Assembly: GCF_002896875.1 (NCBI RefSeq)
Contig: NZ_CP023278.1
Location: 2,914,001-2,978,000, forward strand
Length of the DNA: 64,000 bases
Reading direction: 5' to 3'
Source of the DNA: Nostoc sp. CENA543
Lineage (GTDB): Bacteria; Cyanobacteriota; Cyanobacteriia; Cyanobacteriales; Nostocaceae
Under the pieces are notes generated by a model, which was given only the letters and a program-made list of their open reading frames with translations, was not told the DNA's origin and did no database searches. Below are positions 19,735-29,550 of the stretch, one piece after another. A program made the position numbers and the translations under genes. Numbering within the stretch: the first letter of the stretch is position 1; each line of letters opens with the position of its first letter.

Positions 19735-19890
19735 TTTTAGAGGTAATTGTTGTGATGTTGTGTTATTTTTATGAGTCGTGATGCGTAAAACCCCCTGATT
19801 CATTTGGGGGATATAAGCGAATGAGCCAAATTTATTTGGCTATCTTATGTCAATCATGGTAACATAAGATTGTGTTAAAGAGGTCGAGCC

Positions 19891-21162
19891 ATGATAATCT
19901 ACGAGTTCAAATGTAAAGGAAAAGAAAAACAATATCGTGCAATAGATGAAACTATACGTACTAGCCAATTTATTCAAAACAAGTGCTTGCGCTATTGGAT
20001 GGATAACAAAAAAATTGGCAGATATGACCTTAATAAATACTGTGCGGTATTGGCTCAAGAATTTCCTTTCGCAGATGAACTTAATTCAATGGCTAGACAG
20101 TCTGCCGCAGAACGTTCTTGGTCAGCGATATCTCGGTTTTACGACAACTGCAAAAAGAAAATTAAAGGTAAAAAGGGTTTTCCAAAATTTAAGAAAAACT
20201 GCCGTTCAGTAGAGTATAAAACGTCAGGATGGCAACTTTCGCCAAATCGGAAAGCTATCACCTTTAGGGATAAAAAGGGCATAGGTACTTTAAAACTAAA
20301 AGGAACATATGACCTAAACTACTACGATATCAAACAGATTAAGCGAGTTCGGTTAGTGCGTCGTGCTGATGGTTATTACGCTCAATTTGCTATTGATGAG
20401 GCAGCGCGTTGCGGGGGTTCCCCCCGTTGTAGCGACTGCCGTGTTGACGTAAGGATAGAAACTCAACCGACTAAAAAAGCAGTTGGTTTAGACTTAGGTC
20501 TGAACCACTTCATTGCTGATAGCAATGGTAATTTAGAACTTTCACCTAAGTTTTACCGTAAGGCAGAAAAGCAGTTAAACCGAGCTAACCGCAAGAAATC
20601 CAAGAAGTTCAGCAAGGAAAGAAAGAAAGCAAAGGCTAGACAATCTAACAATTACCGCAAGGCTAGAAATAGGTATGCCCGTAAACATTTAAAAGTAAGT
20701 AGACAGCGAAAAGAATATTGCAAGAAATTGGCATATTCCGTTGTTCACTCTAATGATGTGATAGTCTACGAAGATTTGAATGTCAAAGGCATGATAAAAA
20801 ACCGACATCTATCCAAATCAATCAGTGACGCTGGGTGGTCAACTTTTCGTCAATGGTTAGAGTATTTTGGTTACAAATATGGGAAGATAACTATTGCTGT
20901 ACCTCCCTACAACACAAGCCAAAATTGTTCTAATTGCGGAAAGAAAGTTAAAAAATCCCTATCTACTAGAACTCATGTCTGTGGGCATTGTAACTATGTG
21001 GAAGATAGGGACATAAACGCCAGCATCAACATTTTGAGATTAGGACTCAGTACGCTAGGGCATAGCGGAACTCACGCTTGGGGAGAGACTCCCTCTTGGG
21101 CGATTGGTGTAAACCTGTCGTCTAACGGAGACTCGTTGAACCAAGAATCCCCCGAATTTTAG
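19891..21162 (+). CDS. tnpB: TnpB RNA-guided nuclease (IS1341/IS605 type)
   Basis: A 423-residue TnpB, the ancestor-type relative of Cas12 that in studied members is guided by an omega RNA made from the element's right end. The RuvC triad looks intact: Asp201 (GLDLGLNHF), Glu294 (VYEDLN) and Asp374 (DRDINASINIL). The zinc finger has Cys346/349 and Cys364/367 (CSNCGKK, CGHC). An N-terminal helix-turn-helix and a basic central region (KKSKKFSKERKKAKAR) are present. Residues about 171-190 (AARCGGSPRCSDC...) look like an in-frame insertion encoded by a palindromic G/C repeat. The C-terminal end overlaps the right-end stem. Activity is plausible but untested. Confidence 0.93.
   Translation: MIIYEFKCKGKEKQYRAIDETIRTSQFIQNKCLRYWMDNKKIGRYDLNKYCAVLAQEFPFADELNSMARQSAAERSWSAISRFYDNCKKKIKGKKGFPKFKKNCRSVEYKTSGWQLSPNRKAITFRDKKGIGTLKLKGTYDLNYYDIKQIKRVRLVRRADGYYAQFAIDEAARCGGSPRCSDCRVDVRIETQPTKKAVGLDLGLNHFIADSNGNLELSPKFYRKAEKQLNRANRKKSKKFSKERKKAKARQSNNYRKARNRYARKHLKVSRQRKEYCKKLAYSVVHSNDVIVYEDLNVKGMIKNRHLSKSISDAGWSTFRQWLEYFGYKYGKITIAVPPYNTSQNCSNCGKKVKKSLSTRTHVCGHCNYVEDRDINASINILRLGLSTLGHSGTHAWGETPSWAIGVNLSSNGDSLNQESPEF
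20403..20446. repeat. G/C palindromic repeat inside tnpB
   Basis: The stretch around cgggggttccccccg is far more GC-rich than the surrounding tnpB. It encodes ARCGGSPRCSDC, just before the first RuvC Asp. It reads as a small dispersed palindrome inserted in frame. Insert boundaries are approximate. Confidence 0.5.
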
Positions 21163-21214
21163 TGAAAATGAGCGTAGCGAAATTTTCACTAAAATTCGGG
21201 GGAGTGTCAACCCA

Positions 21215-21670
21215 TTATCGCTTGGCATAAGCAACCAAGGAAACACCCACAACCACAAATACAACTCCTGCAATGCGCGTGGGACTGGCTGCAAACTTAG
21301 TTAGTCCCAGCGCGCCGTAATGATCAAGGAAAAGTGCGGCAATCATCTGTCCTGCAATTGTTAGGGCAAGTGCTAGGGATGCTCCAATTTTGGGTGTAGC
21401 AAAAATGGTTGACCAAACATACAAAGTACCTAAACATCCACCAATCCACATCCACCAAGAAGTTTGTGACAGCACAGCAGCAGCAGGAATGGGATATTGT
21501 GCTACTAAACAAATAGCCAGCGATGCTAATGTACCCGCTAGGTAGGAAATGAATGTGACTTGCATGGGTTCACCTACATAGCGTCGCAGCAGAGTATTGA
21601 GAGCCACTTGGACTGGTAGAATAGCACCACCTGCGAGTGCTGCTAACAGATAAATCGTGCGTCCATTCAT
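21215..21670 (-). CDS. DMT-superfamily (YdcZ/DUF606) small membrane transporter
   Basis: A 151-residue integral membrane protein with about five hydrophobic helices. The opening TIYLLAALAGGAILPVQVAL and the middle segment SWWMWIGGCLGTLYVWSTI resemble the DUF606/YdcZ branch of the drug/metabolite transporter superfamily, with GASLALALTIAGQMIAALFL as the next helix. Substrate unknown. Its stop codon (21215-21217) is 4 bp from the right end of the IS element, so the insertion only just spared the reading frame. Confidence 0.87.
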   Translation of the reverse strand: MNGRTIYLLAALAGGAILPVQVALNTLLRRYVGEPMQVTFISYLAGTLASLAICLVAQYPIPAAAVLSQTSWWMWIGGCLGTLYVWSTIFATPKIGASLALALTIAGQMIAALFLDHYGALGLTKFAASPTRIAGVVFVVVGVSLVAYAKR

Positions 21671-21842
21671 CTTTAATCCTCCCGCACAGAATCTATAAGA
21701 ATATGGTTATTAGTTAGAGATTAGGTCTATTTCATACAGCAGAAAAATTATATTATTTAGACCCTTTGCAAAGTTCTCATATATTTGATTTTTTGGCAAT
21801 AGATTTAATATGTTTTCTTGAGCGATCGCCTACTTGTTTTGA

Positions 21843-22091
21843 TTAACAACGAGCAGAACGTGGCAACATGAAATTTTCCCCTTCTGCGGCAAATACTCCA
21901 CGTACCATCAACACACTATAGTCAAATAAATAGGGAACAGTTGTAGAATGTTCTAAATTTAGCAATTCTGTACTAAAGTAAATGAAAATTTCTTCAATTG
22001 TTTGAGGAATTATCGCTAAAATTTGGCTTAAAGAGCATCTTTGTATTGTAACTAAATCAAAAAGATGCAGTTGATGATTTTCTATGCTCAT
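21843..22091 (-). CDS. Hypothetical small protein
   Basis: An 82-residue frame starting ATG at 22091 (MSIENHQLHLFDLVTIQRC). It contains a possible amphipathic helix (QTIEEIFIYFSTELLNL) and ends MLPRSARC. I see no clear ribosome binding site and do not recognise the family. It lies alone between the DMT transporter and a degraded dipeptidase gene. Coding status is uncertain. Confidence 0.4.
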   Translation of the reverse strand: MSIENHQLHLFDLVTIQRCSLSQILAIIPQTIEEIFIYFSTELLNLEHSTTVPYLFDYSVLMVRGVFAAEGENFMLPRSARC

Positions 22092-22365
22092 ACAGACTAT
22101 TCAATCTAAATCTTCTGCATAATTTAAAATATAGTGATTCCCAGTTAAGTGAGATACAGATAATATTTGGAAACGCAGAGGAGCGCGGAGTAAAGCGCAG
22201 AGTTACGCAGAGATTTGTACCTCAGCAGATTAGGAAACGCTATACCTCTACTCTCATTAAATAAGAACAATGGTTTTTCATTCACTACACCAACAATATT
22301 AGAAACAGAAAGCCGATTCTCTAAAAGTCTATGCAGTAACGTCATAATGAGGTCTAGAGATAGTT

Positions 22366-22647
22366 AGTGATAGTACAGCCCTTACATTGGTGGATGAAAC
22401 TGGACAAGTAATTGATATGGGTTCGCCTATTGATGAAATGTCAGTGCGATCGCATCCTGATTACTATGCTGATCAGGATCATCGCTATGCTCATTACTAT
22501 CATGCCCATCGTCAGTTATTGTATGAGGTCATGTTGAAAGCTGGTTTTCAACGTAACCCCAAAGAATGGTGGCATTTTTGTTATGGTGATCAAATGTGGG
22601 CTTGGTTGAATCATCAATCAGTAGCCCGTTATGGGCGTTTATTTTAG
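22366..22647 (+). pseudogene. C-terminal remnant of VanX-type D-alanyl-D-alanine dipeptidase
   Basis: The frame reads ALTLVDETGQVIDMGSPIDE and later GFQRNPKEWWHFCYGDQMW, typical of the C-terminal half of peptidase M15D (VanX/DdpX), which cleaves D-Ala-D-Ala. The ExxH part of the zinc site (EWWH) is present. The N-terminal half, including the first zinc ligands (the SxHxxGxAxD motif), is missing: the sequence joins family-like text only at about 22375. The first possible start is TTG 22387. Upstream I find only dispersed repeat (acgcagaggagcgcggag-type) and no other part of the gene. I read it as a 5'-deleted pseudogene. Confidence 0.75.
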
Positions 22648-22657
22648 CCTCTGTATA

Positions 22658-23143
22658 CTAAGCATCTTCTGGATTCATCTGTCTTAATTCTTCAGTGGTG
22701 TATGTACCAATAGGACTCCAAAGTAAGTAGGGAACTAGTAATAATGTCGCTACCCCAGAAATTGGTAGCACACAGATTGCTAGTAACACTGCTAACATGA
22801 AACCACTTAAGCCGATAATTTCCCCGGTTTTTAGACTTTGCAGTCTCAGCATCAAGGGTATATAAGCGACTGTGATGATTTCTACCAATATGTATAAACC
22901 CATCAGTAACCAAGTAATTACACTCCCTGGATTGTGCAGCCAAACCACATTAGCTGAAGCCGCACCACAAATAAAAATTACAGTCCAGATGAGGGGGATA
23001 AACGGTTCAAAAACTAGCCATCGGGGACGACTTAATTGTGCAAACCATTTAACATCACGCGGCGTAATGAAGAAACTACCAACCGCTACTAAGAATGTCA
23101 CAGCCCCGATTACCATCCAGGATGGAATCATAATTTTACTCAA
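22658..23143 (-). CDS. TspO/MBR family membrane protein (paralog 1)
   Basis: A 161-residue five-helix membrane protein of the TspO/MBR (translocator protein) group, which in bacteria is linked to tetrapyrrole handling and stress signalling. Signature positions include the WF..LSRPRWLVFEPFIPLIW segment (Trp-rich first loop) and LLVPYLLWSPIGTYTT at the end. It shares its layout and many residues with the next gene upstream (23219-23692): both end in SPIGTYTT followed by QMNPEDA or QINPQDA. The two are 75 bp apart on the same strand and look like a tandem duplication that may be co-transcribed. Confidence 0.8.
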   Translation of the reverse strand: MSKIMIPSWMVIGAVTFLVAVGSFFITPRDVKWFAQLSRPRWLVFEPFIPLIWTVIFICGAASANVVWLHNPGSVITWLLMGLYILVEIITVAYIPLMLRLQSLKTGEIIGLSGFMLAVLLAICVLPISGVATLLLVPYLLWSPIGTYTTEELRQMNPEDA

Positions 23144-23218
23144 CTAATCTTTTGTCAATTAATACACTGCCAGTTTGACAATCGATGATATGGGTTGAAT
23201 CATTCGCTGGTAGTAACC

Positions 23219-23692
23219 TTAAGCATCTTGGGGGTTAATCTGCATCATTTGCCAAGTGGTGTATGTCCCGATGGGACTCCAAAGTAAATAGGGGACTAAT
23301 AATAAGGCTGCCCAACCAGAAACAGTTAAAACTGTAATTGCCAAAATAATACAAATGGTGAACCCTGTACCACCGATGAGTGTACCTACCTGGAGGCTAC
23401 GAAGCTTGAACATCACAGGTGTATAGGCAATGGTGACAATTTCTAGTAGCAGGTATAAACCCATGAGTACCCAAGTTGTATTGGTATTGGGGTTACGTTC
23501 CCAAATAATATAGGCTGACCATGCACCGCAGACAAAGACAACAGTCCAAATTATGGGAATTGCGGCTTCAAAGGTTAGCCATCGTGGTCTTTGTAAGCGT
23601 TTAAACCACTGACGATCGCTCGGTGTAATTAAGTTTGCGGCTAAAGCCACTACAAGAACTATACCCCCAATCACCATCCAAGATTTAATCAT
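23219..23692 (-). CDS. TspO/MBR family membrane protein (paralog 2)
   Basis: A 157-residue membrane protein with the same five-helix plan as its downstream neighbour: an opening IKSWMVIGGIVLVVALAANL, ITPSDRQWFKRLQRPRWL in the first loop, IIWTVVFVCGAW, and a closing LLVPYLLWSPIGTYTTWQMM. Assigned to TspO/MBR by the RPRWL and W-rich motifs. Start ATG at 23692. It is the first gene of a probable two-gene unit. Whether the copies differ in ligand cannot be told from sequence. Confidence 0.8.
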   Translation of the reverse strand: MIKSWMVIGGIVLVVALAANLITPSDRQWFKRLQRPRWLTFEAAIPIIWTVVFVCGAWSAYIIWERNPNTNTTWVLMGLYLLLEIVTIAYTPVMFKLRSLQVGTLIGGTGFTICIILAITVLTVSGWAALLLVPYLLWSPIGTYTTWQMMQINPQDA

Positions 23693-23913
23693 TGCCCTTT
23701 ATTCCTGGCGATCGCCAACTATGCTTTCAATATCTGTTATTCTTCCCCAATCATGTCAATTTAATGCCTAATTACTCATCAATCCTAAGTTTGAGATGTT
23801 TGCTTTGGCTAATTTTCTGTCTAGAGGTATGGTTTTGGCTATGTCTGGAGGTGGGGGTAAAGACTAGAAGGTAAAAATATCCTGGTGTTGGGGAAGTAGG
23901 TAATTTTAGATAT

Positions 23914-24480
23914 ATGCAAGCCGAAACAGAAACGCGATCGCTAGTACATAGTTCACTGCATGGAATTGCCAAGACGATTAATCTTACTGGTTGGATAACT
24001 TTTTGGGTGCAACTAGCACTAGTCGTGGTTTCTGGATTAGTGCTACTATTTGCTTCCACCGGACGCAGATTTGCTACTCAACAAAATACAGGCATCGGGA
24101 TTGGGATCTTCTGGGCTATTTGTGCAGTTGCGGCCTTATTGTTTAGTGTGTATTGGTATTTTCGCTATACTCGCATCGCCAAGCGACTAGACAATCCCAA
24201 CCCAGCTTTACATCCTACTAAAGCAGATACCATCAGAATTATTGAAATAGGAGTTTTGGCAGGTTTAATAGGGATGTTACTCGCTCTTGTGGGTGCTGGT
24301 GCAACATTAGGAGTTTTAGTTGCCAAATCCATCTCTCAACCGCCAGGAGTAGCGATTGTTGATCCCAATAAAATTATCCGCGCTTTGGATGTGTTTGTGA
24401 TGGTAGCAAATATTAATGGTATTGCTGCCCACTTTATCGGGACTGTCGCTTCATTGTGGTTGTTGCAAAAATTAAGGTGA
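23914..24480 (+). CDS. DUF3611 family membrane protein
   Basis: A 188-residue protein with four strongly hydrophobic helices (for example FWVQLALVVVSGLVLLFAS and IIEIGVLAGLIGMLLALVG), matching the cyanobacterial and plastid DUF3611 family. Opening residues SLVHSSLHGIAKTINLTGW and the motif RRFATQQNTGIGIGIFWA are characteristic. Function is unknown; a plasma-membrane or thylakoid location is likely. Divergent from the TspO pair, with about 220 bp between. Confidence 0.85.
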   Translation: MQAETETRSLVHSSLHGIAKTINLTGWITFWVQLALVVVSGLVLLFASTGRRFATQQNTGIGIGIFWAICAVAALLFSVYWYFRYTRIAKRLDNPNPALHPTKADTIRIIEIGVLAGLIGMLLALVGAGATLGVLVAKSISQPPGVAIVDPNKIIRALDVFVMVANINGIAAHFIGTVASLWLLQKLR

Positions 24481-24482
24481 TG

Positions 24483-24520
24483 GGGAATAGGGCATTGGGC
24501 ATTGGGCATTGGGCATTGTA
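24483..24520. repeat. STRR (gggcatt units)
   Basis: Four tandem gggcatt units directly after the DUF3611 stop codon. Confidence 0.85.
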
Positions 24521-24547
24521 TTTTTCTTCGCCTACACCCTTACATCC

Positions 24548-25930
24548 CTATACTTCTATCCCCTTTTTTACAAATTCTAGACACAATTGCCGAAAGCGAT
24601 CGCCCCTCACTTCAAAGTTGGGGAATTGATCAAAGCTGGCGCAGGCTGGTGATAGTAATACTACTGCTGCTTGATGTTCTTTGGCTAACTCTGCACCTCT
24701 AGGTACTGCGTTTTCCATTGTTTCTACAATTTCATAATTGTTATAACCAACTTCTTGCAGCCGTTGAGCAAAGGCTGGTGCCGCCGCGCCAATCAGTAAG
24801 ACAGCCGCCGCTTTGGCTTGGATACTAGCTAACCACGCTGTATCATCTCCTGGTTTAGCTTCACCGCCAGCAATTAACACCACTGGACTACTCACAGATG
24901 CTAGTCCTACGTCTGCTGCGTCGTAATTGGTGGCTTTGCTGTCGTTGATAAAATCAATGCCTTCCCAGGTGCAAATATGCTCTAAGCGGTGGGGAACTCC
25001 AGGGAATTCTCGTACAGCTTTGTCGATGGCTGTAGGTGCGATGCCGGCTAGTCTCGCTACACCTACGGACATGAGTAAGTTTTGTAGGTTATGCGCTCCC
25101 ACCATCCGCAAAGCAGAGGCCTCAATAATTCTCTGGGGTTGAGAGTCGGCTTGTAACTGTTCTATTACCCAACCATCCTCAATATAAAAGCCTTTGTTCC
25201 CAATCAGAAAGTCTTTACCCTTGACACTTGTCCAGTAAGCATCCGGCCAATCACTGATACCTACTTTACTTAGATAAGCATCATCACCGTTCACAACTTG
25301 TAATTGCGACTGACGTAACAGCTTGGCTTTGATGTTGTAATAATTTTCTAGGGTTTTGTGACGGGCTAGGTGATCTGGAGTAAAAGTTGTCCAGACGCTA
25401 ATGTGAGGAGCTAGAGATGCAGAAGATTCGATTTGATAGCTGCTCATTTCCCCAATTATCCAATCGGGTAATTTCTTGGCTAACGCTACTTCACAAGCAG
25501 CGTAGCCAATGTTACCGCAAGCTGGGGCATCAAATCCTGCCGCTTGAAAAATGGCTGCAATCAGGGCTGTGGTGGTAGTTTTACCGTTTGTGCCTGTGAT
25601 TCCCACCCAAGGCAGCTTGTATAAATTGCGCCAAGCCAATTCCATTTCGCCAATTGTTTCTATGCCCAATTCTCGCGCCTTGACTAACACTGGTATGTCC
25701 CAAGGCACACCCGGACTAACGACAATTAAATTGGGTATATCAGCACCATCTAATTCTAATGAATGCCCTAGTTTAACTGTAATTTGTTCCTTGGCGAGTG
25801 CTTGTTGTTGACTGAGGAGGGTTTCGGAGGTGTTGCGGTCACTCAGCATCACCTCCCAACCTTCCCGTTTCAACAATCTCGCCGCAGCAATACCGGACTT
25901 TCCTAATCCAATGACATGGGCTTTGGACAT
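24548..25930 (-). CDS. murD: UDP-N-acetylmuramoylalanine--D-glutamate ligase
   Basis: A 460-residue cytoplasmic Mur ligase that adds D-Glu to UDP-MurNAc-L-Ala in peptidoglycan synthesis. The N-terminal Rossmann domain starts [19 protein letters not shown], the ATP P-loop is [11 protein letters not shown], and the substrate region includes [10 protein letters not shown] and [12 protein letters not shown] choose ATG 25930 (MSKAHV) rather than the upstream codon at 25960, because the family starts near this point. It is not in a dcw cluster here, which is usual for cyanobacteria. Confidence 0.95.
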
Positions 25931-26163
25931 AGACTGTGGCAGATTTCCCTGGTTAAGCACTCATTATGTTATCGCTAATTGGCAAAAATTAACACCATAT
26001 TTTATTGCTTTATACTACAGATTTTTGCAGGTTAGAGGTGTAGGAGTTTAAAGGTATAGGGTTCGGCTGTTGACTCTGTAGCTTTTTCAGAGGTCAAAAT
26101 TCATTGCTCCCACCACATAAGAGTCCTATATTAATAAATAGTCGGAGTATCTTGGAGGTCTAG

Positions 26164-26403
26164 ATGAATGTACAACTTGTTAATTCTCTCGTAGAAGTGG
26201 TACTAAACCTCTCTCCCGAAGAGCAAAAACTCTTTCAAGAAAAGCTTAGCAACAAGCATTCAACGTTACTAACTAGTAAACCTCAAACATCATCCGAGAG
26301 ATTATTACTTTGGCAAGAGTGGATAGATACAGCACCAAAAAGCTATGCCAACCTTGATGATGAAGCTCTGCGGCGAGAAAACATCTACGATGATGAAGTA
26401 TGA
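26164..26403 (+). CDS. Putative antitoxin of a PIN-domain toxin pair
   Basis: A 79-residue acidic protein: N-terminal helix with VEVVLNLSPEEQKLFQEKL, then a linker and an acidic tail LDDEALRRENIYDDEV. The size, the acidic tail and its position directly upstream of a PIN-domain gene mark it as the likely antitoxin. It carries no DNA-binding motif that I can identify firmly. Its TGA overlaps the toxin ATG by 4 bp (26400-26403), so the two are translationally coupled. The ribosome site ggag lies before the ATG at 26164. Confidence 0.75.
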   Translation: MNVQLVNSLVEVVLNLSPEEQKLFQEKLSNKHSTLLTSKPQTSSERLLLWQEWIDTAPKSYANLDDEALRRENIYDDEV

Positions 26404-26831
26404 CCCATTATTTATTAGATACTAATATCCTGTTACGCTCCAGGGATATAGCTTCACCCGATTATAATCTTGTTGATCGCACAATCAGGTATCTAATATC
26501 TAATAACCATCAATGTTTTATTACATCTCAAGTTTTAATTGAATTTTGGGTTGTAGCCACCCGTCCTGTAGCTGTAAATGGATTTGGATGGACACCAGAG
26601 GAAACCGAAGGAACGGTGCAAATGCTCATAAATCAGTTTGAGTGGCTGGAAGAAACACCGGATGTCTTTCGCTTTTGGTTTAGGCTCGCTACAACTTATA
26701 AGGTTTCTGGGAAACGTACCCATGATTTACGCATACAAGCCGTAGTGCTTGCTCACAACATCAGCCATATTCTGACTTTAAACCCAAAAGACTTTGTAGA
26801 AGTTGAGGGAATTACGAGCCGTGATGCGTAA
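26400..26831 (+). CDS. VapC-like PIN-domain ribonuclease toxin, C-terminus altered by an insertion
   Basis: A 143-residue PIN-domain protein, probably an Mg-dependent RNase toxin held in check by the upstream antitoxin. The first catalytic Asp is in LLDTNILLR (Asp7), with further acidic residues in VLIEFWVVA and HDLRIQAVVLAHNI and the typical ending ILTLNPKDF. The last four or five residues (TSRDA) and the stop codon come from the left end of the IS605-type element that begins at 26816. The core fold should be intact, but the natural C-terminal tail was replaced. Confidence 0.85.
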   Translation: MTHYLLDTNILLRSRDIASPDYNLVDRTIRYLISNNHQCFITSQVLIEFWVVATRPVAVNGFGWTPEETEGTVQMLINQFEWLEETPDVFRFWFRLATTYKVSGKRTHDLRIQAVVLAHNISHILTLNPKDFVEVEGITSRDA

Positions 26832-27151
26832 AGCCCCCAAGTATGAAGCACAAAACCAATAAGTTTTGTGCTTCATACGTCTTTTAAGTGGGGGATATAA
26901 GCGAATGGGACAAATTTATTTGTCCGCGAAAAATGATACAATCGAATTGTCCACAACACAGGCAGAGTCTCGCCGCAAGGGAGGAACCTGTCTCGGAATG
27001 GGTGGCAACATATTTTTCGCCGTCGGGCAGCCGGTGTATGCTTGCGGAGGGTAAAGTAATCTGGGATGTTGCTGTATGGATTCGTCCTTTGGGTATCTTG
27101 GATCTCCCTGTGAGGCAAGAATCCCCGAAATTTTATTTCGGGGAGTGTCAA
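26816..27151. mobile_element. Non-autonomous IS605-type element (PATE-like) related to 19773-21210
   Basis: 336 bp. The left end gagccgtgatgcgtaaagcc directly follows TTAC. It then has an extended hairpin with gtatgaagcacaaaac paired to gttttgtgcttcatac inside a ccccca/tggggg frame, gggggatataagcgaatg identical to the tnpB element, and the palindrome gacaaatttatttgtc. The right end is caagaatccccgaaatttta, then cggggagtgtcaa. The interior (about 26940-27100) is GC-rich, structured and non-coding. It has both ends but no tnpB, so it is probably mobilised in trans. It may encode a guide-RNA-like transcript. Confidence 0.85.
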
Positions 27152-27362
27152 TATTGTTCATCCCAGTAGCATCAACAGCTAGAAACTGGGATAAGTGTAT
27201 GATGTTCACATTAAACGTAATTTGTGATAGATACACGAATTTACCAAGCCCCATTGGTTTAGGTGTAGGGGTGTAGGGGGAAGAAAAAGCAGCCAACCCA
27301 ACCCTTGAGTTAAAAGCCCTGGTTCTTGGGGCAAACGTGTTGGGCGGGGATTGAAAAAGAAC

Positions 27363-27405
27363 CCAACCCCTTAAACCCTTACACCCTTAAACCCTTAAAC
27401 CCCTA
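27363..27405. repeat. STRR (acccttaa/acaccctt units)
   Basis: Tandem cccttaaa and cccttaca units that reach the stop codon of glyS. The 210 bp between the IS-like element and this array show no gene. Confidence 0.75.
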
Positions 27406-29550
27406 ACTTTTTACAATTGCCCCAAAGTCTGCTAACACACGAGCGTGATTTCGCAATAATCCCAGCAAATTCAAGCGATTGCGCTTAATTTCTGGATCAG
27501 GGTCAATCACTAAAACGCTATCCGCCCCATCAAAGAAATTACTCACTGTTGGGGCAATATTTATTAACCCTTCTACTAACAGTTGATAGTTACGTGATTG
27601 CTGTGCGGCTTGGGTTTGCGGTACTAATTTAACTAAGGCTGCATAAAAGGCTGACTCAGAAGACTTTTGGAATAGTTCTGGACGGACTAAATTTGTGGGG
27701 TCTAGCTGTTTGGTATCTAAATCACCTTGGGCTGCTAGTCTGGTGGAACGGTTGACGGTTTCGTAGATTTTATCGAGTGTACCATCGCGACGGATTTGTT
27801 GCAGGTATAGGGCGCGATCGCGCACATCTAATAAATCCTGTAATGCCCTATCTGTATACTCTGGATCATTTTCTCCCAAGACGGCATTTACTAAGTCGTA
27901 GTCAATTTGTTTTTCTTCTTGCAGTAGGGTGCGAATCCGTTGTAAGAAGAATTCCTGTAAGGCCGAGTTTAATTTCCCTAAGTCCTTATTGTATTGCTGG
28001 CAGAAGTTAGCAGCGACTTGTTCTAACAGAGTAGCTAAATTGATTTGTAAATTCGCCGCCCAAGTAATGTTAACTACAGCGTTAGCAGCGCGACGCAAAG
28101 CAAAGGGGTCAGAAGAACCACTGGGAATTAATCCTAAACCAAAGATACTCACTAAAGTATCGAGTCTATCTGCGATACCGACTACTTGACCTGTGAGGGT
28201 TTGGGGTAGGATGTCATCTGCCCCCCGTGGTAAATAATGTTCAAAAATCGCTGTAGCCACTGCGGTTGATTCACCGCTAGCGATCGCGTATTTTTGTCCC
28301 ATAATTCCCTGTAACTCTGGGAATTCAAAGACCATTTGCGTTACTAGGTCGGCTTTACACAATAATGCGCCCCGTTCAATATGTTGGCAACTGTCTGCAT
28401 TTAATTGCAGTTGGGTAGAAATTTGCCCAGCAATATTAACTATCCGGTCTACTTTAGTGCGTAATGAACCTAAATCTTCTTGGAAGGTGACGGTTTCTAG
28501 TTGGGGTAAATAATTTTCTAAAGCCTTTGATAAATCAGATTTGTAGAAAAACTGTCCATCTGCTAGCCTAGCTCTAATTACCCGTTCATTACCCACGGCA
28601 ATAATCTCGGCTTTGTTGGGGTCGCCATTACCCACAGTAATAAAATAAGCTTGCAATTCTGTTGTACTACCTGCTTTAAATACGGGGAAATAACGCTGGT
28701 GACTCACCATGACCGTAGTAATTACTTCCGTAGGTAAGGCTAAAAATTCTGTTTCAAATTTACCTACCACTGGAGAAGGCCATTCTACTAAATTCGTCAC
28801 TTCCTCTAATAAGTCGGGGTACATTTCCGTACTCCCGTTTAATTTCTGTACCGCCGCTCGTACTTGTGATTGGATTGATTGGGTGCGTTCTTCGGGATCT
28901 ACAACTACGTAAGCATCACGCAGCGTTTTCACGTAGTCGGCGGCGTTGTGGATGGTGACGGGTTCAGGATGTAAAACACGATGACCATAGGAAATGCGAT
29001 CGCTGTTAATTTTAAGCGAACCATTTTCTAATTCAATCGGCAGAATCGCCTCATCTAACAAACTCACTAACCAACGAATGGGACGAGAAAATCTCACATC
29101 CCCATCTCCCCAGCGCATCAGGCGTTTACCTTCTAGGTTGTAAATCCACTGGGGAACCAGTTCTGTCAAGATATCCGCCACAGGACGGCCGGGAATACTT
29201 TTTTGGACAAAGACAAAATCCCCTTTATCTGTAGGACGCACTTCTAAGGCTTCTATCGCCACACCTTGCTTTTTCGCAAAACCTATGGCGGCTGGTGTGG
29301 GTTGGCCATCTTTAAAAGCAGCTTGGGCGGGTGGGCCTTTGATTTCCTCTTCTCTGTCTGGTTGCTGGGATGGTAAACCCGTAATCAGTACCGCCAACCG
29401 CCGGGGAGTACCGTAAACTGTGACCGATTCACTATTGAGGCTATGGGCTGCTAAACTTTCAGGAATACGCGATCGCCATTGTGCCACAGCACCACTCAGA
29501 AAGCTTGCAGGTAGTTCTTCTGTACCAACTTCTAATAAAAATGCCGTCAT
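27403..29550 (-). CDS. glyS: Glycyl-tRNA synthetase beta subunit
   Basis: A 715-residue beta chain of the bacterial alpha2beta2 glycyl-tRNA synthetase, needed for tRNA-Gly recognition; the alpha chain (glyQ) is not in this window. The typical opening [16 protein letters not shown] is present, followed by [17 protein letters not shown] and [20 protein letters not shown]. The C-terminal DALR-type anticodon-binding region ends [20 protein letters not shown]. Full family length. Start ATG at 29550. Monocistronic here, as expected for cyanobacteria. Confidence 0.97.

Follow-up and report, generated by a model that had tools for sequence, protein, structure and literature searches.

We analysed a 64,000-nucleotide stretch of the genome of the cyanobacterium Nostoc sp. 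CENA543 (contig NZ_CP023278.1, positions 2,914,001 to 2,978,000; hereafter the window), in which a short element without a tnpB gene occupies positions 26816-27151 of the forward strand. This 336-bp element is probably a non-autonomous IS200/IS605 transposon that encodes only an omegaRNA, the guide RNA of TnpB nucleases, which would be used in trans by TnpB proteins of a 411-aa subfamily. The evidence comprises a precise insertion with a recent gain or loss, a scaffold homologous to tnpB-borne omegaRNAs, a structured 5' RNA module preceded by a conserved -10-like box, and a family in which we count 34 loci.

Using window positions 26300-27900 as query, we found an uninterrupted site in a related genome (G012, contig C35), where query positions 1-516 (98% identity) and 853-1601 (97%) abut exactly at bases 20612/20613. 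Because the flanks abut, the element measures exactly 336 bp, and their near-identity points to a recent insertion here or to a precise loss in G012. An earlier, sequence-only reading of the window had placed a tnpB element at 19773-21210 and a tnpB-less one at 26816-27151; both positions hold, the latter confirmed by this empty site. The element was inserted 3' of TTAC (26812..26815, forward strand), which is not duplicated, so that it shows the fixed short target on the 5' side and the lack of target duplication that mark IS200/IS605 elements; IS608 inserts 3' of the same short target TTAC (PMC8612924, PMC10097598; papers are cited, here and below, from excerpts of their text). This tetranucleotide is the putative target-adjacent motif (TAM) of a TnpB carrying the guide of the element. 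The left end (26816..26907) starts GAGCCGTGATGCGTAAA and forms a long hairpin with arms at about 26839-26879 and outer CCCCC/GGGGG. Together with the TTAC, its first 86 bases match the left ends of tnpB elements in G012 (L099) and G013 (L069), both of the 411-aa type, at 97.8-98.9% identity over 90 bases (E 2e-41 and 3e-40), which is beyond chance. The element and the window tnpB element have in common the left-end GTGATGCGTAAA, the GGGGGATATAAGCGAATG block and the right-end hairpin with GUGUCAA; a small palindrome at 26908..26925, GGACAAATTTATTTGTCC here and AGCCAAATTTATTTGGCT in the tnpB element, is compensated on both sides, as had been claimed and as can be read directly. Since the palindrome belongs to the left end and precedes the promoter-like box, it is a feature of the DNA end and not part of the proposed RNA. 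The right end reads GGGGAGTGTCAA, and the flanking DNA at 27152..27171 (TATTGTTCATCCCAGTAGCA) is, by the rule known from ISDra2, the prospective source of the guide. Equally beyond chance, a nearly full-length copy was found again elsewhere in the same genome (85% identity, E 1.5e-116); this second stand-alone copy lies at C1:4057933, where another repeat blurs the empty site. No tnpB match (E <= 1e-8) occurs within 1.5 kb of either copy (L179, L181), and the RNA of the 336-bp element does not overlap the 3' end of a tnpB of its own.

The GC-rich core of the element is, as judged by covariance models, homologous to the guide RNA of TnpB. We built model R1 from 15 tnpB-borne right-end RNAs of the 411-aa TnpB subfamily and model R2 from 23 right-end RNAs of a 423-aa subfamily that includes the window tnpB, both without any stand-alone sequence. 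R1 matches the element at 26996-27151 with 62.8 bits (E 1.9e-11) and R2 with 50.5 bits (E 3.5e-9). When R1 was run on the whole genome (7.2 Mb, with 150 of 1340 first-look candidates scored), the element ranked second, after the 411-aa tnpB itself. All 20 stand-alone cores supplied were matched by R1 (34.0-84.3 bits) and 18 of them by R2, with R1 scoring higher in 19 of the 20 (the exception is L055). The predicted scaffold (27019..27151) consists of stem 1 (27019-27024/27030-27035, loop GGGCA), the long-range stem 2 (27041-27045/27115-27119), stem 3 (27048-27051/27106-27109, our own reading) and stem 4 with the terminal GUCAA (27122-27151), which adjoins the guide. In the alignments an extra hairpin, GATGTTGCTGTATGGATTCGTCCTTTGGGTATC (27065..27097), lies inside stem 3 and is missing from all 15 tnpB omegaRNAs of alignment A1. 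Stems 1, 2 and 4 show changes on both sides in the stand-alone alignment, in which 98.5% of the cells pair and the covariation score reaches 0.233, versus 0.002-0.072 for slid and 0.095 for shuffled versions. The structured core claimed earlier is thereby borne out by homology and covariation, with a weak single-sequence fold. As read from the alignments, the tnpB frame has been lost through a 2-nt gap in the sub-class of the window element and stems 1, 2 and 4 have been retained.

Upstream of the scaffold we identified a 52-nt 5' RNA module, here called module A (26956..27007, from an alignment of 13 members), with a predicted helix capped by a GCAA tetraloop (26969-26971/26981-26983 plus 26973-26974/26979-26980). 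It is preceded by an extended -10 box, TGATACAAT (26934..26942), a putative promoter of the RNA. Such a box stands 13-14 nt before module A in all 33 loci compared (TGnTAnnnT in 28, TAnAAT in five), a count from a regular-expression search without a shuffled control. Across the 13 aligned members 36 of the 52 positions of the module are invariant, a figure inflated because most members were found by an exact pattern. The inner pair of the helix occurs as C-G, U-A, G-C and A-U, and the loop as GCAA, GAAA, GUAA, UUCG, UGCG, UGUG, GGGU or CACAGA, with GNRA or UNCG in 10 of 13; in the outer helix one pair changes from G-U to C-G in two G220 loci (L214, L218) that were found by the model and not by the pattern. 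A covariance model of the module (R3) recovers the window element; among 79 tnpB loci it has no match better than chance (the next scores 13.1 bits, E 0.83). A protein-coding reading of the element was rejected: the forward strand, to which the search was limited, holds a 93-aa open reading frame (ORF) without Pfam match, and, measured from the module to the right end, the loci are 186-234 nt long, with length differences not divisible by three.

The family comprises 34 module A loci in 12 Nostocales genomes, namely 33 in 11 genomes and one in G216 that is cut by an assembly gap. From left to right end, 31 of them span 221-412 bp, too short for tnpB; this set omits the cut locus as well as L218 and L229, for which no length was obtained; about 0.9 kb downstream of its module, outside the RNA, L218 shows a match to tnpB. 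Searching one genome per species (84,980 species) with the module A pattern yielded 18 stretches in 8 genomes, all of them Nostocales-type cyanobacteria. No match was found in plasmids, nor, with the pattern, in the 2.9 million viral contigs of IMG/VR. Copies stand at unrelated sites, eight in G189, six in G013 (five of them 96-98% identical) and five in G414; the identities leave out the values for L077, which came from a faulty extraction. The target tetranucleotide of the 33 loci is TTAC or TTAT in 11 (the boundary of L056 is uncertain), TGAC in 20 and neither in two, and is constant within each of the two main sub-classes. Loci of the TTAC type have their left end in common with elements of the 411-aa type in G012 and G013. 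The TGAC loci of G189 and G414 match the left ends of tnpB elements of their own genomes (L231 and L247) at 83-97% over 33-49 bases including the target (E 2e-8 to 4e-18); a TGAC left end also belongs to tnpB L109 of G044. In scaffold, the TGAC loci of G189, G414, G044 and G013 come closest to the clade of L108, L109 and L231. By these comparisons left-end type and scaffold tend to go together, by TnpB clade. One exception is L230, a 411-aa-type tnpB whose left end is TGAC; in G013, moreover, we saw none of the TGAC type ahead of tnpB L108, so that left end and scaffold are unlinked there.

Further tnpB-less stretches were encountered alongside this family. In the genome of the window (G000), L198 (C1:3365982-3366163, reverse strand) and L203 (C1:6133349-6133547, forward strand) are omegaRNA-like cores of the 423-aa type (R2 87.5 and 50.6 bits) with no tnpB match nearby and, by eye, a different 5' module, AACCACTT..AAAAACCC..GCACCTTGA.AACTGAA..GGGGTTCTAC. 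L202 (G000:C1:1851240-1851391, reverse strand) and L064 (G072) form another tnpB-less pair of cores with what looks like a third module type, GCGGTAAAGCGCATA.ATAAAAA.CGAA.TAGGTC. L205 and L206 (G000:C1:5135191 and 4745938) are near-identical short tnpB-less copies that end GGAGTATGTCAA (R2 30.6 and 29.1 bits). Finally, L062 and L063 (G017) and L067 (G044) are tnpB-less RNA-like stretches ending GGGAGAACGTCAC, which differ in their 5' part and have the stem-3 hairpin GATGTTGCTGTATGG..CATC like the window element, in variant form in L067.

Module A bears directly on whether the element is dead or passive, that is, a palindrome-associated or miniature inverted-repeat transposable element (PATE or MITE) that arose by internal deletion of a tnpB element, keeps its ends only for TnpA and carries a functionless RNA-like part, an explanation we regard as unlikely. 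There is precedent for it in a PATE-like IS605 derivative of Halanaerobium, in which a left end of 28 nt is joined to the terminal 58 nt of tnpB plus the right end (PMC7290912), and the element resembles such derivatives in having no tnpA and no intact tnpB and in joining a tnpB tail to a right end. Moreover, similarity to the tnpB C-terminus persists in the core of L221 (G220; residues 380-411, 72% identity), and three of the host genomes have no intact close TnpB. However, a simple deletion would bring neither module A, which is absent from the 79 tnpB loci and carries compensatory changes, nor a -10-like box at fixed spacing, and the tnpB frame was lost through the 2-nt gap while stems 1, 2 and 4 were kept. 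The Halanaerobium PATE is a single copy of ends-only sequence (PMC7290912), whereas here a family with an RNA module extends over several genomes. By the module A search, the element does not consist only of sequence of a parent element, although its true parent may lie outside our sample, and, judged by its own -10-like box and conserved 5' module, it is more than a simple deletion derivative.

The sequence-only reading had seen the partner of the element in the tnpB element of the window itself (19773-21210, forward strand), an assignment that is probably wrong. That element is a tnpB-only element of IS605 type with the shared left-end and right-end motifs; TTAT precedes its start GAGTCGTGATGCGTAAA, its right end is GGGGGAGTGTCAA and its guide would start at 21211. 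It encodes a TnpB of 423 aa (19891..21162, forward strand; Pfam OrfB_IS605 and Cas12f1-like_TNB) that resembles the solved structure 8bf8, which we take to be ISDra2 TnpB (E 1.7e-34). Its omegaRNA (21026..21210, forward strand) scores 149.4 bits with R2, the model of its own family, and 32.9 with R1. The core of the 336-bp element, by the same models, is a better fit to the omegaRNA of the 411-aa subfamily (62.8 vs 50.5 bits), and the interval between stems 1 and 2 follows the 411-aa type (GAGGGUAAA...CUCCC) and not the 423-aa type in the alignments. Local alignment within the genome gave the element 44.2 with the 411-aa type versus 17.0-19.0 with those 423-aa-type loci that were compared, three out of nine, and the second copy scored 44.4 bits with R1 and 28.3 with R2. 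The 411-aa TnpB of this genome (G000:C1:1856212-1857444) lies 1.08 Mb from the element, contains Pfam OrfB_IS605 and Cas12f1-like_TNB and resembles 8bf8 over residues 18-390 (E 1.7e-34). That the RNA serves the window TnpB at 19891-21162 instead seems to us quite improbable, even though the left-end type and right-end hairpin are the same, the core is matched by R2 as well (E 3.5e-9), the genome has nine loci for the 423-aa TnpB and one of the 411-aa type (E <= 1e-60), and the second copy hardly separates the types by local alignment (25.7 vs 24.9): R1 exceeds R2 for all but one of the 20 cores, and the region between stems 1 and 2 is of the 411-aa type. The covariance comparison upheld the expected similarity of the core to a tnpB right-end RNA, and the window family turned out not to be the best fit. 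The sequence evidence supports the proposal that the locus is of omegaRNA type, stands alone, has no transposase of its own and would have a guide starting at 27152; module A, the promoter-like box, the second copy and the family in relatives go beyond this proposal.

For the 336-bp element as an omegaRNA gene used in trans, we propose the following mechanism. Transcription from its own promoter would give an RNA of about 196 nt, made of the conserved 5' module and the TnpB omegaRNA scaffold, followed by a guide copied from the DNA to the right of the element. This RNA would be loaded in trans by a TnpB of the 411-aa subfamily whose gene lies elsewhere in the genome, and the loaded TnpB would cut TTAC followed by the guide sequence, the target being TTAC + TATTGTTCATCCCAGT. 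As this target arises only through excision of the element, we suggest that repair from the sister chromosome would restore the element at the donor site. Movement itself would depend on a Y1 TnpA acting in trans. It is very improbable that the RNA is instead a decoy or regulator that binds TnpB and lowers its activity elsewhere, or guides a nuclease-dead relative, with no cleavage of the donor site, for although the extra 5' module and stem-3 hairpin are unneeded for a plain omegaRNA and the 5' region of the ISDra2 omegaRNA is dispensable for cleavage (PMC10097598), a pure decoy would need neither the terminal GUCAA abutting variable flanks in 20 of 20 cores (the extraction pattern required UCAA) nor a constant target tetranucleotide in each main sub-class.

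Several results weigh against an omegaRNA gene served in trans by the 411-aa subfamily. Two of the five covariation measures do not rise above those of shuffled alignments, namely pairs changed on both sides and further pair types (as high in 202 and 329 of 500 shuffles, respectively). Many of the changes do no more than separate two sub-classes and so represent few events. Folded as a single sequence, the core is only weakly more stable than its shuffles (z = -1.59, 8 of 200 as stable). A pairing between the stem-1 loop and the 3' terminus is possible in all 20 cores, a check that is partly circular because the search pattern fixed the loop (in L059 the script picked the right-end hairpin). 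With strict filters the module A covariance model matches only 6 of 388 sampled Nostocales genomes and, in an overlapping sample of the phylum, 3 of 386. The second copy is nearly tied in local alignment, at 25.7 with the 411-aa type and 23.0-24.9 with the 423-aa type. We also compared 24 cores with 76 tnpB 3' ends (62 labelled as 411-aa type and 14 as 423-aa type) by local alignment as a sign of same-genome co-evolution, with mixed results. The best-matching tnpB RNA came from the same genome for only five cores, and for the 336-bp element that of its own genome ranks 8th of 76. The best own-genome end ranked first for the G044 core and for four copies in G013, second or third for L071, L212 and the three copies in G005, and between 6 and 34 for the remaining 14. 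The finding that all 24 best matches are of the 411-aa type carries little weight, because the set is mostly of that type, and L017 and L051, which carry a REP-like (repetitive extragenic palindromic) insert, score far highest with L257, probably through this insert. Furthermore, an intact close TnpB is missing from G007 (best match to the 411-aa TnpB 36% identical), G220 (full-length ones 53-54%) and G415 (53% TnpBs plus only a broken copy at 66-69%). As to transposition, a single Y1 TnpA was found in the genome of the window (E <= 0.001), and the DNA around it has no such left end, which makes present mobility in this strain doubtful despite the recent gain or loss at the empty site. The left-end motif does occur beside a Y1 tnpA locus of G062 (L171), which has no tnpB match in its vicinity.

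Stand-alone omegaRNAs are familiar from HEARO/IscB (HEARO, HNH endonuclease-associated RNA and ORF), where guide-RNA loci of an OMEGA (obligate mobile element-guided activity) nuclease occur without the protein gene; in HEARO the guide is on the 5' side and serves IscB. We rejected a HEARO/IscB origin of the element, as the window has no Rfam match at the gathering threshold and the element no HEARO match at E <= 10. RAGATH-18 RNAs are TnpB guide scaffolds linked to IS607 and found mainly in Firmicutes; 64% of them (10,258/16,029) adjoin an IS607 tnpB (PMC11061315), so about a third may not. In contrast to that class, the only RAGATH-18 match here is below threshold (24 bits vs a gathering score of 44.9) and falls on the RNA of the window tnpB at 21077-21147, with none to the stand-alone element. 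Among known TnpB RNAs a close parallel is that of ISDra2, whose right-end RNA takes roughly its last 16 nt from the flanking DNA and directs TnpB to cut the target motif plus flank, a site formed on excision (PMC8612924). Like the ISDra2 omegaRNA, also called reRNA, the predicted RNA is a right-end RNA with stems 1-4 in the same order, in which the stem-1 loop could form a pseudoknot with the terminus (PMC10097598), with the 3' guide taken from the flank and the TAM at the left end (PMC8612924, PMC10097598). It differs from it in lacking overlap with tnpB and in having its own promoter-like box, a different conserved 5' module and an extra hairpin in stem 3.

On a wider view, to which we give slightly less than even chances, TnpB guide-RNA genes may have become independent selfish units, RNA-only transposons that carry a promoter and a dedicated 5' RNA domain of their own, parasitise TnpA to move and TnpB to be retained, and have diversified into sub-classes tracking different TnpB clades by left end and scaffold. 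Such sub-classes would include the TTAC type, the TGAC type and, within this genome alone, two or more other 5' modules. If the proposed reading is right, mobile RNA genes can supply a TnpB with many guides in trans, much as CRISPR arrays do for Cas12, and represent both an economical parasite of RNA-guided transposition and a plausible intermediate between transposon-borne omegaRNA and guide RNAs that stand alone. As natural omegaRNA genes that have extra domains and encode no protein, they would also be useful for probing the role of the 5' part of the RNA. In the excerpts of the open-access literature covered, we found no family of tnpB-less TnpB omegaRNA genes with their own promoter-like box and conserved 5' RNA domain.

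In the surroundings of the element, a PIN-domain ORF (26400..26831, forward strand; PF01850 at 23.4 bits, cut-off 23.6) is entered at its 3' end by the insertion, and its present stop codon falls inside the left end. To the right of the element lies a dispersed repeat (window about 27239-27406) with many copies in G000, G001 and G012, and the stand-alone copy at C1:4057933 has another repeat, about 124 bp long, next to it. The loop of the right-end hairpin of the window tnpB element holds a REP-like palindrome (21163-21200); such palindromes are seen in omegaRNA stem 3 as well, in stand-alone copies and in a tnpB RNA (L017, L051, L097). Another tnpB element of the 423-aa type with the same left end (L015, G000:C1:2842724-2845611) is split by a 436-aa ORF that by eye looks transposase-like.

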